Part shown: piece by piece, positions 35,174 through 38,740 of the stretch | Position numbering within the stretch: the first letter of the stretch is position 1 | How the letters are laid out: every line of letters starts with the position of its first letter | Source: an uncultured Mucispirillum sp. | Lineage (GTDB): Bacteria > Chrysiogenota > Deferribacteres > Deferribacterales > Mucispirillaceae | Assembly: GCA_944326705.1 (NCBI GenBank) | Contig: CALVEY010000013.1 | Location: 1-62,428 of the forward strand | DNA length: 62,428 nt | Direction: 5' to 3' | Translations under genes and position numbers: made by a program | Notes under the pieces: generated by a model | The model's input: the letters and a program-made list of their open reading frames with translations, nothing else | Database searches by the model: none | Told to the model about the DNA's origin: nothing

Positions 35174-35611
35174 TTATTCAGCATCTTTTTTTAATTCAGC
35201 TTTCATACTGTCTACAATTGATGCATCTTTACCTTGTTTAGTATAATAATCTTTTAAAGCTGCTTCTACTGCTTCTTCTGCCATAACTGAGCAGTGAATT
35301 TTTGCAGGTGGTAAACCACCTAATGCATCAACAATAGCCTGGTTAGTAAGTTTTAAAGCATCTTCTACTTTTGCTCCTTTTAACATTTCTGTAGTCATAG
35401 AGCTTGATGCAATAGCTGCTCCACAGCCAAAAGTTTTAAAAGTTGAATTTTCGATAACGCCATCGCTGTTCACTTTTAAATATAATTTCATAACATCACC
35501 GCAAGATGGGTTGCCTACTTCGCCAACACCATTTGCATCTTCAATTTCTCCCATATTTCTTGGGTTTGTAAAGTGATCCATAACTGTATCACTATATGGT
35601 CCTGCTGCCAT
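35174..35611 (-). CDS. iscU: Iron-sulfur cluster scaffold IscU
   Basis: IscU is the scaffold on which clusters are built. The 145-residue protein has the three cluster cysteines in GNPSCGDVMKLYLKV, TFGCGAAIASSS and PPAKIHCSVMAEEA, and keeps the Asp after the first Cys (CGD). The LPPxK-type loop is intact as GLPPAKIHC. It follows the IscS-like gene by 20 bases. The short tail after residue 125 (KQGKDASIVDSMKAELKKDAE) is extra compared with minimal IscU. Confidence 0.94.
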   Translation of the reverse strand: MAAGPYSDTVMDHFTNPRNMGEIEDANGVGEVGNPSCGDVMKLYLKVNSDGVIENSTFKTFGCGAAIASSSMTTEMLKGAKVEDALKLTNQAIVDALGGLPPAKIHCSVMAEEAVEAALKDYYTKQGKDASIVDSMKAELKKDAE

Positions 35612-35631: not shown

Positions 35632-36831
35632 TTATTTTTTTATTTTTGACGGGTCAAATGCCGGGCTCATTGCACAAAGTTTATCAATAATTTCCGGACT
35701 TACTTTTAACACATGGTCAATATCTTCTTCTTCAATATATTTAGAAAGACTCATTGTAATTGAGCCTGCACAAATATCTGTAGGCACACCAACAGCTGTT
35801 AATACATGAGATGCCTGTAAATCTTCTTCATCTTCTGCTAAAATGTTAGAAGAACATGCTGAACCGCTGGCACAATATACACCTTTTTGAGCATACCACA
35901 TTAAAAGAGATTCCCCTTCAATATATTCTACCCAAAAACTTACATGATAAGGCAGTCTGTTTTCTCTATCACCTGTAATGTGTAGAAAATCATACTGCGC
36001 AGTTAAACCATCAATTAATTTATTTCTTAATTTTGTAAGTTTTGCAGTATATTCTGCCATTTCATTTTTAGCGATTTCACATGCTTTTCCAAGCCCTACA
36101 ATAGCAGGAACATTTTCACTTCCGCTTCTAATGCCCCTTTCTTGAAAACCACCATCAAATAATGGAGCAAGTTTCACTTCTGGTGCAACATATAAAGCTG
36201 CAGCCCCTCTTATACCATAAAAATTTTGTGCTGCAATAGTTAATGTTGATGCGTTCATTTTTTTAACATCAATATCTATAAAACCACATGATGCAACTGC
36301 ATCAACATGGAAGTGAACACCTTTTTCTTTACATATTTTTCCAATAGCTTCAATATCCTGAATAACACCTATTTCTGAATTTGCATGAGCAATAGCAACA
36401 AGTGCAGTATCATCTTTTATTGCATTTGCAACACTTTCTGGTGATATTCTACCATTTTTATCAACAGGCAGCTTTGTAAAAGTATAACCATAATTAGTTA
36501 ACTTTAACACTGGATTTTGAATAGAATAGTGCTCTATTTCGCTTATAACTATATGTTTTTTATTACCGCTTAAAGCCATAACACCTTTGATTGCCATATT
36601 ATTTGATTCTGTGCCGTTAGATGTGAATACTACACATTCTGCTTTTTCAGCACCAATTAAATCTGCAACCTGCTGTCTAGCTTGATTTAAAGCACTATAA
36701 CTTTCCCTTCCCAGTGGATAAAAATGAGCTGCTGGATTGCCATATTTTTCTGTTAAATAAGGCATAACAGCTTCAACAACTCGTGCATCTGGTTTTGTTC
36801 CAGCTATATTATCTAAATAAATTGGATTCAT
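35632..36831 (-). CDS. IscS/NifS-like protein lacking the PLP lysine
   Basis: The 399-residue protein has the full cysteine-desulfurase fold: LDNIAGTKPDARV, FTSNGTESNNMAIKG, SEIEH (His101), HVDAVASCG (Asp177) and GGFQERGIRSGSENVPAIVG. The catalytic-loop cysteine is Cys326 in ASGSACSSN. Where family members have His-Lys before YGPKG, this protein has Ala-Gln202-Asn203-Phe-Tyr-Gly-Ile-Arg. The PLP-contacting Gln after VDA is Ala180. It therefore cannot form the usual PLP Schiff base. It may be a cluster-assembly partner of IscU using free sulfide, as in Archaeoglobus IscS, which has Asp at this position. iscU follows by 20 bases. Confidence 0.93.
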   Translation of the reverse strand: MNPIYLDNIAGTKPDARVVEAVMPYLTEKYGNPAAHFYPLGRESYSALNQARQQVADLIGAEKAECVVFTSNGTESNNMAIKGVMALSGNKKHIVISEIEHYSIQNPVLKLTNYGYTFTKLPVDKNGRISPESVANAIKDDTALVAIAHANSEIGVIQDIEAIGKICKEKGVHFHVDAVASCGFIDIDVKKMNASTLTIAAQNFYGIRGAAALYVAPEVKLAPLFDGGFQERGIRSGSENVPAIVGLGKACEIAKNEMAEYTAKLTKLRNKLIDGLTAQYDFLHITGDRENRLPYHVSFWVEYIEGESLLMWYAQKGVYCASGSACSSNILAEDEEDLQASHVLTAVGVPTDICAGSITMSLSKYIEEEDIDHVLKVSPEIIDKLCAMSPAFDPSKIKK

Positions 36832-36833
36832 TA

Positions 36834-37634
36834 TTAAATTACCTCTTTCATTTGTTTAATAATATCTTCTATTAACACTCTAACATAATCACCAACAAAA
36901 GTAAGACCATTTCTGCGTGGTATTACTGTTATATCACTGCGTTCAGAAACATCTGATGCAGTAAAAAAACTTTCTGTTGGAAAATATCCTTCATCATCTT
37001 TTAAACCAAACATATCTTTTGCAAAAACATCCATTTCAAATACTGTAGATAATGGAGAAATTCTAATAGATATATCGCCACCTGAAGCAGCAAAATCATC
37101 AACTGTTTTACCTACAGGAAGACCTGCTGTAACAGGATTAAAATGTTTATTAAAAGCTATTCTGTTATGAAAAACTAAGCTTTCTGTTTCATCAAAAGTA
37201 AAAATACTTCTTGTCTGCTGCATTAAGTCTTCAACCCCCTGCCTGCCATATATACATACAGGAAGTGATAATACAACTGAAACATCAGCTACAGGCACAG
37301 CTATATTTCTTAAAATTTTTCTAACAGGTTCATATACTTTAAACACTTCTGCTTCTGGAGAAAATTCATAACCAGTAATGTCTATAATAGTGCCGTCAAA
37401 GTTTTTAATTACTTTTTCATCATGCATTGGTTTTGCAAGCATAATTAAAAGCTCTGCATCTTTTAAAAGAGATAAGTCAGTTTCTACATAACCTTCTGCA
37501 CTATCTTCTAATGATTCTGCAAATTCTTTATCTCCAAATACAGTGTATTCTAAAAGCGGAAATTCTTCTTCTATTTTAGAAAGAAAATCCAGTAATAATA
37601 AATAATCATTAATAAAAATTGCTGTTTTTAACAT
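36834..37634 (-). CDS. Degenerate aspartate-semialdehyde dehydrogenase-like protein
   Basis: This 266-residue protein is not clearly identified. Parts resemble the C-terminal domain of Asd/USG-1 proteins: a segment like the SxxQxVSGxGxxGxEEL region (here VVLSLPVCIYGRQGVEDLMQ), then NRIAFNKHFNP and later PRRNGLTFVGDYVRVLIEDI. The family's AsnProAsnCys active-site segment and the Rossmann GxxGxxG are absent. If it is a homologue it is inactive as a dehydrogenase. It sits 2 bases upstream of the IscS-like gene and 18 bases after the RodZ-like gene, so it may have a structural role in the operon. Confidence 0.45.
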   Translation of the reverse strand: MLKTAIFINDYLLLLDFLSKIEEEFPLLEYTVFGDKEFAESLEDSAEGYVETDLSLLKDAELLIMLAKPMHDEKVIKNFDGTIIDITGYEFSPEAEVFKVYEPVRKILRNIAVPVADVSVVLSLPVCIYGRQGVEDLMQQTRSIFTFDETESLVFHNRIAFNKHFNPVTAGLPVGKTVDDFAASGGDISIRISPLSTVFEMDVFAKDMFGLKDDEGYFPTESFFTASDVSERSDITVIPRRNGLTFVGDYVRVLIEDIIKQMKEVI

Positions 37635-37652: not shown

Positions 37653-38597
37653 TTATCTTCTAATTAATTCCAGTTTGCCGTCTTGTGCTTCATAATTTAA
37701 TATACGAACAACATTTCTATTACCAAAATTAGAATATTCCTGTCCGTTATATTCCATTGATACTGCAACAGCATTACCTATTTCTATTCTAAATGTTTTA
37801 TCAAACTCTATTTCTATTTCTGTTCCACGTCTTGCATTAACTTCATTTTCTTCGCCTTTATCTGTGCTGTATTTAAACCAGCAGTTTTCAGAAAATTTTA
37901 CTTTAACTTTTTCTGGTGATAAAACAACAGGTGTTGGTATAGTTTGAGCAAATAACGGGTCTATATATGCTGGCTCTGTTGTATTATCATTAGTATTTAT
38001 AGTTAAATTATCTGTATTATTATCAGCATATATTGATGTGCCATAATAATTGAAATACGAGCTGTTATCGCTTGTATTATCTCCTGCAAAAGTAACTGCA
38101 GGCTCTGGCTCTACAACTGTAGCAGGCACTGGAGTATTTACAGCAGTATTACTACCACCAATAGTAACAGTATTATTTAATATGCTGCTTGAATACATGT
38201 AATAACCACCATAACCAATAAGAAGCAGCACTATAATAAACAGTATTATAGTAAAAGGCTTTTTACTGCCTTTTTTCTCATTTTCTAAAAAACTTGTTTC
38301 TGTAGTAGATGGAGTATATTCTTCTTTTGTAATATCATGCGGCTGTGCTGGCGCACCTTCTTTTGGACATTCTTCAGCAAAAAGCGGCCATACAACATTT
38401 TCATAGTCTAAATTTAAAAACTCGGCATATTTTTTTACAAATCCATAAGCATGTAAATATGATGGTAAATCTTTAAATCTTCCTTCTTCTATTACTTTAA
38501 TAAAATTTTCTCTAATTCTTGTATCATCAACTACATCTTGTATCGTTTTTTTCTGCTCTTCCCTAGTTGATTTTAAAAGATTTCCTAATTCACTCAT
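37653..38597 (-). CDS. RodZ-like protein: HTH domain, one membrane helix, extracytoplasmic domain
   Basis: This protein has 314 residues from ATG 38597 (GGAGAG upstream). The first ~90 residues are a RodZ-type helix-turn-helix: LGNLLKSTREEQKKTIQDVV, then TRIRENFIKVIEEGRFKDLP, YLHAYGFVKKYAEFLNLD. A Lys-rich patch and one membrane helix follow (about 115-140). Then comes an Asn/Thr-rich linker (about 140-220) and a C-terminal DUF4115-like beta domain with VKVKFSENCWFKYSTDKGEE. RodZ links MreB to the cell-wall machinery. The open frame extends to 38666, but homologues start with the chosen Met. Confidence 0.8.
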   Translation of the reverse strand: MSELGNLLKSTREEQKKTIQDVVDDTRIRENFIKVIEEGRFKDLPSYLHAYGFVKKYAEFLNLDYENVVWPLFAEECPKEGAPAQPHDITKEEYTPSTTETSFLENEKKGSKKPFTIILFIIVLLLIGYGGYYMYSSSILNNTVTIGGSNTAVNTPVPATVVEPEPAVTFAGDNTSDNSSYFNYYGTSIYADNNTDNLTINTNDNTTEPAYIDPLFAQTIPTPVVLSPEKVKVKFSENCWFKYSTDKGEENEVNARRGTEIEIEFDKTFRIEIGNAVAVSMEYNGQEYSNFGNRNVVRILNYEAQDGKLELIRR

Positions 38598-38740
38598 TAT
38601 GCTCTCCATAACTACTTCATACCTTTTCACAGAGTAGTCTACTATTTTTCTATATTTTTTCAACATATTTTTTTAATTACATTGAAAAAAATTCATATTT
38701 TATACAAAATATTATATATATTACTTTATTTATTAATAAC

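Follow-up and report, generated by a model that had tools for sequence, protein, structure and literature searches.

An IscS-like protein without the PLP lysine is conserved beside iscU in Mucispirillum and across the class Deferribacteres

The window, i.e. the whole stretch of 62,428 nucleotides of an uncultured Mucispirillum sp. that was analysed, carries on its reverse strand an iscS-like gene next to iscU. The genes and the codons of interest, from upstream to downstream, are as follows.

37653-38666, minus strand: rodZ-like gene, a neighbour conserved in the class (neighbourhood comparison).
36834-37634, minus strand: gene for a protein of 266 residues, degenerate and like USG-1/aspartate-semialdehyde dehydrogenase, conserved in most of the class.
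35632-36831, minus strand: iscS-like gene with Gln-Asn in place of His-Lys, an uninterrupted reading frame of 399 residues.
36292-36294, minus strand: codon GCA of Ala180, at the position of the PLP-site Gln183 of Escherichia coli IscS (codon check).
36223-36228, minus strand: codons of Gln202-Asn203, at the PLP Schiff-base position (His205-Lys206 of E. coli IscS; codon check and alignment).
35854-35856, minus strand: codon TGT of Cys326, the retained loop cysteine (codon check and alignment).
35824-35844, minus strand: acidic insertion of seven residues right after Cys326, approximately residues 330-336, common to the Deferribacteres family (alignment).
35174-35611, minus strand: iscU scaffold gene, with the three Cys residues, the Asp and the His of the cluster site in NPSCGD, FGCGAA and KIHCS.

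The codon check bears out the active site as it was first read in the preliminary description: Gln202 is CAA (36228-36226) and Asn203 is AAT (36225-36223) where His-Lys is expected, Ala180 replaces the Gln, and His101 (CAC), Asp177 (GAT) and Cys326 are kept. According to the alignment Thr74 is also kept. The equivalents of His101 and Asp177 contact PLP in E. coli IscS. Two further changes at the PLP site had been missed, Ala200 for Ser203 and Ser238 for Thr243 of the E. coli protein, and YGIRG is found where YGPKG is usual. The family alignment shows no substitute Lys near the lost site; the sole invariant Lys of the family is Lys82, which lies in an NNxAIKG motif that is common to ordinary IscS as well. 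The acidic insertion (SGSACSSNILAEDEEDL and similar) directly follows the cysteine loop in all Deferribacteres orthologues and does not appear in the aligned canonical, Elusimicrobial or Archaeoglobus fulgidus IscS sequences.

A match to PF00266 (Aminotran_5; 231 bits) places the protein in the aminotransferase class V family. It scores below the NCBIfam cut-offs for IscS (343.5 versus 643.2 bits) and NifS (421.5 versus 530.8 bits), although this shortfall is not diagnostic, as the intact lysine-containing paralogue of the same genome (L001) is also below the IscS/NifS cut-offs. Of the residues that mark an active desulfurase, the Lys of SGHK and the Gln of DAxQ, which forms a hydrogen bond to PLP, are missing and the loop Cys is present; the marks of the A. 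fulgidus type, namely a kept loop Cys without a Schiff-base Lys and an adjoining iscU gene, are both found. An AlphaFold2 model based on the family alignment (pLDDT 87, pTM 0.89) predicts that the IscS/NifS cysteine desulfurase fold is retained; residues 226-235 and the Cys loop (325-331) have pLDDT values below 50. According to Foldseek, the model matches human NFS1-ISCU complexes, A. fulgidus IscS-IscU (PDB entries 4eb7 and 4eb5; TM 0.90-0.95) and E. coli IscS-IscU, all with TM scores of about 0.9, and the IscU-docking surface is presumably retained too. The protein resembles E. coli IscS and human NFS1 (about 38% identity) in its fold, its mobile Cys loop and, judged by the operon, its partnership with IscU; it differs from them in having lost the catalytic His-Lys, Gln183 and Ser203 and in having a longer Cys loop.

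Mucispirillum is a gut commensal. The Mucispirillum genome (2.39 Mb, 97% complete) has close relatives in the genome collection, all Mucispirillum records (Deferribacterota) at 85-96% identity. A search for orthologues in 51 genomes of the phylum found full or near-full lysine-less proteins in 43, spread over nine families of the class Deferribacteres and 54-100% identical. None of the 43 has the Lys: 41 have Gln-Asn and the two from family f9 have Thr-Asn. The loop Cys, His101 and Asp177 are kept in all 43, and a Gln at the DAxQ position is found in none. All of the other IscS-type proteins aligned with them, about 90, keep His-Lys, with the exception of one from Elusimicrobia and three from genomes labelled Atribacteria or Actinomycetota, so the absence of Lys from every class orthologue is not a matter of chance. 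The dN/dS values for the lysine-less gene within the genus are 0.045-0.10, the same range as the value of 0.066 for the lysine-containing iscS in the one pair compared. The preliminary description had held that the intact frame and operon spoke against decay, and had named a sequencing error, or relatives with Lys at this site, as what would overturn it; no such relative occurs among the 43, and a sequencing error is thereby rejected. A decaying or mis-assembled gene, for which nothing speaks except that the copy in one MAG (G046, 57% complete) is fragmented, is refuted by the class-wide conservation, the dN/dS of at most 0.10 and the intact operon. Judged from these sequences, the lysine-less gene is old and conserved.

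The tie to iscU is equally close. The iscU gene starts 20 bases past the stop codon of the lysine-less iscS, the preceding reading frame ends two bases before its start, and the cluster-site residues of the adjoining IscU are normal. Throughout the class the order is rodZ, usually the 266-residue gene, iscS (Gln-Asn) and iscU, coaX lies further upstream on those contigs that are long enough to show it, and the lysine-less gene adjoins iscU wherever downstream sequence is available. Searches with NifU_N across the phylum gave one strong IscU per genome, which is the neighbour of the lysine-less iscS where that gene exists. Mucispirillum has no clear second IscU by this search. A weak partial NifU_N match on another contig (G000:C1:118787-118930) falls in a reading frame of about 243 residues that is common within Mucispirillum. 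SUFBD was found neither in this genome nor in 49 of the 51 genomes of the phylum, being present in family f8 only, which rules out SUF as the actual assembly system. Since SUF is missing from most of these genomes and the lysine-less protein is encoded beside their sole IscU, the cells probably rely on this protein. Pfam gives no hit for the 266-residue gene between rodZ and iscS. When its orthologues are combined into a profile, positions 113-208 of the profile align weakly with USG-1/aspartate-semialdehyde dehydrogenase (2hjs, E = 1e-4), so the gene may encode another degenerate enzyme of the cluster.

The preliminary description had allowed for another desulfurase in the genome, and the genome search found a lysine-containing IscS and one further protein of the desulfurase family. 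Of the 43 genomes that have the lysine-less protein, 42 also encode a second IscS with about 39% identity to it, the exception being a genome that is 73% complete, and His-Lys and DAxQ are kept in each of these second copies that was read in the class alignment. That of Mucispirillum (L001) has SGHK and DAVQ and lies beside cysE-iscR; it belongs to the same family as the lysine-less protein but is not linked to iscU. The same cysE-iscR-iscS cluster without iscU occurs in most of the genera read from families f1-f6. Because the lysine-containing gene sits with cysE-iscR and the lysine-less gene with iscU, the usual iscR-iscS-iscU arrangement appears to have come apart into two clusters, one for sulfur supply and one for the scaffold. 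In two MAGs of one genus of family f7 (G032, locus L148; G033, locus L147), iscU lies directly beside a lysine-containing iscS and iscR, and the lysine-less gene was not found, with the caveat that MAGs are incomplete; this apparent natural swap suggests that either kind of IscS can occupy the place next to IscU. A conserved protein of about 85 residues is encoded next to or near the lysine-containing iscS in many families of the class (L001:2657-2914, L234-L239, L242 and L244) and has no Pfam or NCBIfam match. The further desulfurase-family protein of the Mucispirillum genome (L002:1453-2613, minus strand; TIGR01977) has the Lys. Its gene lies between an FdhE-like gene and a gene for an iron-sulfur oxidoreductase subunit, and it may have a connection with formate dehydrogenase or selenium metabolism. 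A cysteine desulfidase of the CyuA type (PF03313) was not found in this genome, which rules it out as a source of sulfide.

Lysine-less IscS proteins also occur outside the Deferribacteres. A profile search showed a distinct high-scoring IscS group in roughly 80 of 248 Elusimicrobiota genomes. In the 37 genomes that were read, the His-Lys position is SQ, TQ, AQ, QQ, SV, SM, ST, SI or SS, the loop Cys is present wherever the sequence reaches it and iscU is nearly always adjacent. In seven Elusimicrobial genomes (G067, G070, G150, G172, G202, G208 and G237) a lysine-containing and a lysine-less iscS are neighbours on the same strand, and iscU comes next if the contig extends far enough. Some small Elusimicrobial genomes, which may be incomplete, showed the lysine-less copy only. 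A DsrE-like gene follows several of the Elusimicrobial lysine-less iscS-iscU pairs (L015:8073-8543, L169, L174, L176 and L178), and its product is possibly a sulfur carrier. In a third group, from Atribacteria and one MAG labelled Actinomycetota, His-Lys is replaced by His-Thr and His101 by Asp; a longer NifU-like scaffold gene is adjacent and a DsrE-like gene lies just upstream (L063:5551-7804, L164, L166 and L167). In trees calculated without the active-site columns and the seven-residue insertion, the Deferribacteres and Elusimicrobiota lysine-less proteins form one clade (bootstrap 100, SH-aLRT 99; found in 200 of 200 bootstrap trees). A. fulgidus IscS and the Atribacteria group are placed elsewhere in the free trees, near archaeal lysine-containing IscS with moderate support, giving three changes, although the AU test (p = 0.59) does not reject a tree in which all of the lysine-less sequences are forced into one clade.

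The likeness to A. fulgidus IscS (IscS2; PDB entries 4EB5, 4EB7 and 4HVK, and the D199K variant 4R5F) that was drawn at the outset is upheld by the structural match, which this protein gives alongside other IscS proteins, and by the residues. Both proteins have an IscS fold, an IscU partner, a loop Cys and no Schiff-base Lys, and 4eb5 combines changes at the same sites, with Ala for Gln (DATAS), Asn-Asp for His-Lys (SSND) and RSGS in place of RSGT. The archaeal protein differs in having Asp where Mucispirillum has Asn and in lacking the seven-residue insertion after the Cys. It is without desulfurase activity owing to the Lys-to-Asp change, and its cysteine is a ligand to the [2Fe-2S] cluster in IscU (PMC7585200); the ligands are three IscU cysteines and IscS Cys321, and PLP is drawn in 4EB5 (PMC9769115). 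Methanosarcina acetivorans IscS1 also lacks the catalytic Lys and has been proposed to work like A. fulgidus IscS (PMC7585200); it is archaeal, belongs to one of three IscSU sets in its genome and is likened here by description only. By score, the closest solved sequences, above A. fulgidus IscS, are recent 'cysteine desulfurase' entries with variant sequences (PDB entries 9wep, 9wew, 9wer, 9wf8, 9wfb, 9wfe and 9wfy).

Taken with the genomic arrangement, these features lead us to favour, as the probable explanation, a partner of IscU that is not a desulfurase, acting by docking and as a cysteine ligand or persulfide acceptor, with sulfur coming mainly from the lysine-containing IscS. We infer the loss of activity, the docking, the role of the cysteine and the source of the sulfur as follows. 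With its fold intact, the protein would be unable to take sulfur from cysteine by itself, and its homodimer would still dock IscU. The flexible, elongated Cys326 loop would enter the IscU assembly site, where Cys326 would act as a transient ligand of the cluster, like its counterpart in the A. fulgidus complex, and/or accept a persulfide and pass the sulfur on. The sulfur would be supplied in trans, most likely by the separate lysine-containing IscS encoded with cysE and iscR, with free sulfide as a possible second source; this supply in trans is suggested by the co-occurrence of the two proteins, by the cysE-iscR-iscS cluster and by the Elusimicrobial operons. The usual job of IscS would thus be divided between a desulfurase and an assembly partner. 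The small Elusimicrobial genomes in which the lysine-less copy alone was seen are a point against this explanation.

The main rival concerns the source of the sulfur: the lysine-less protein would build clusters on IscU from free sulfide with Cys326 as a ligand only, and the lysine-containing IscS would serve tRNA and cofactor thiolation. Deferribacteres are largely anaerobic, which counts in favour of free sulfide, as do the A. fulgidus precedent, the position of the lysine-containing gene outside the iscU operon and the same small Elusimicrobial genomes. We nevertheless consider it unlikely, as the class keeps its cluster of cysteine synthesis, IscR and lysine-containing IscS, and the seven Elusimicrobial genomes place such an IscS beside the lysine-less gene and iscU, both of which point to cysteine-derived sulfur. 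Furthermore, the trait is class-wide and so is not bound to one sulfide-rich habitat. The suggestion that it is an adaptation to such a habitat was not supported: a class-wide trait that coexists with a conserved cysteine-sulfur cluster does not need this explanation.

The lysine-containing IscS could also act on IscU directly, leaving the lysine-less protein as a regulator. As a decoy, it would dock IscU, limit the access of the active enzyme and so tune Fe-S synthesis, which would suit the retained fold, the presumed IscU surface and the shared operon. The mobile-loop Cys is, however, conserved in every sequence read that covers it, which a pure decoy would not need, and the equivalent A. 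fulgidus Cys is a cluster ligand; we give this explanation a slim chance.

Slightly less probable still is an active desulfurase in which PLP is held without a Schiff-base linkage and the Lys is replaced as general base by His101 or some other residue. His101, Asp177, Thr74 and Cys326 are all available to it, and E. coli IscS K206A retains some PLP and slowly forms intermediates (PMC9978102). The equivalents of Gln183, His205 and Lys206 are all gone, however, no new invariant Lys has appeared in the family and A. fulgidus IscS is reported to be inactive (PMC7585200). As the K206A and Q183E substitutions each abolish the desulfurase activity of E. coli IscS (PMC9978102) and the lysine-less protein has lost both side chains, a self-sufficient activity is very unlikely by analogy. 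Noncovalent PLP is possible, and would explain the retention of His101 and Asp177; there may be a residual or unusual reaction.

Returning to the partner of IscU that we favour, a bolder form of it can be put forward tentatively for the Deferribacteres and much of the Elusimicrobiota. The lysine-containing IscS would make the persulfide, and its lysine-less sister would take it on the loop Cys, perhaps in a mixed complex, and build the IscU cluster, this being the main cellular route to Fe-S clusters. If it is true, a sulfur-relay partner has evolved from the desulfurase itself.

Lysine-less IscS is already known from archaea (A. fulgidus IscS and M. acetivorans IscS1). We found no report of it in Deferribacteres or Elusimicrobia in the mainly open-access literature searched; within that literature three things are new, namely a bacterial class whose sole IscU is accompanied by such a protein, a sister clade from a second phylum, and operons that also encode an active-type IscS. 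The described examples that we found are all archaeal and could be dismissed as oddities, whereas the trait is here fixed in an entire bacterial class and its sister clade is common in the Elusimicrobiota. The automatic annotation of these proteins as 'cysteine desulfurase' is probably wrong. The question of the sulfur source can be put to a direct test with those Elusimicrobial operons that encode desulfurase, partner and scaffold next to one another. The arrangement suggests that sulfur supply and cluster assembly are divided between two sister IscS proteins, a natural separation of two roles of IscS, sulfur donor and assembly partner or ligand, that are hard to part in E. coli or mitochondria.
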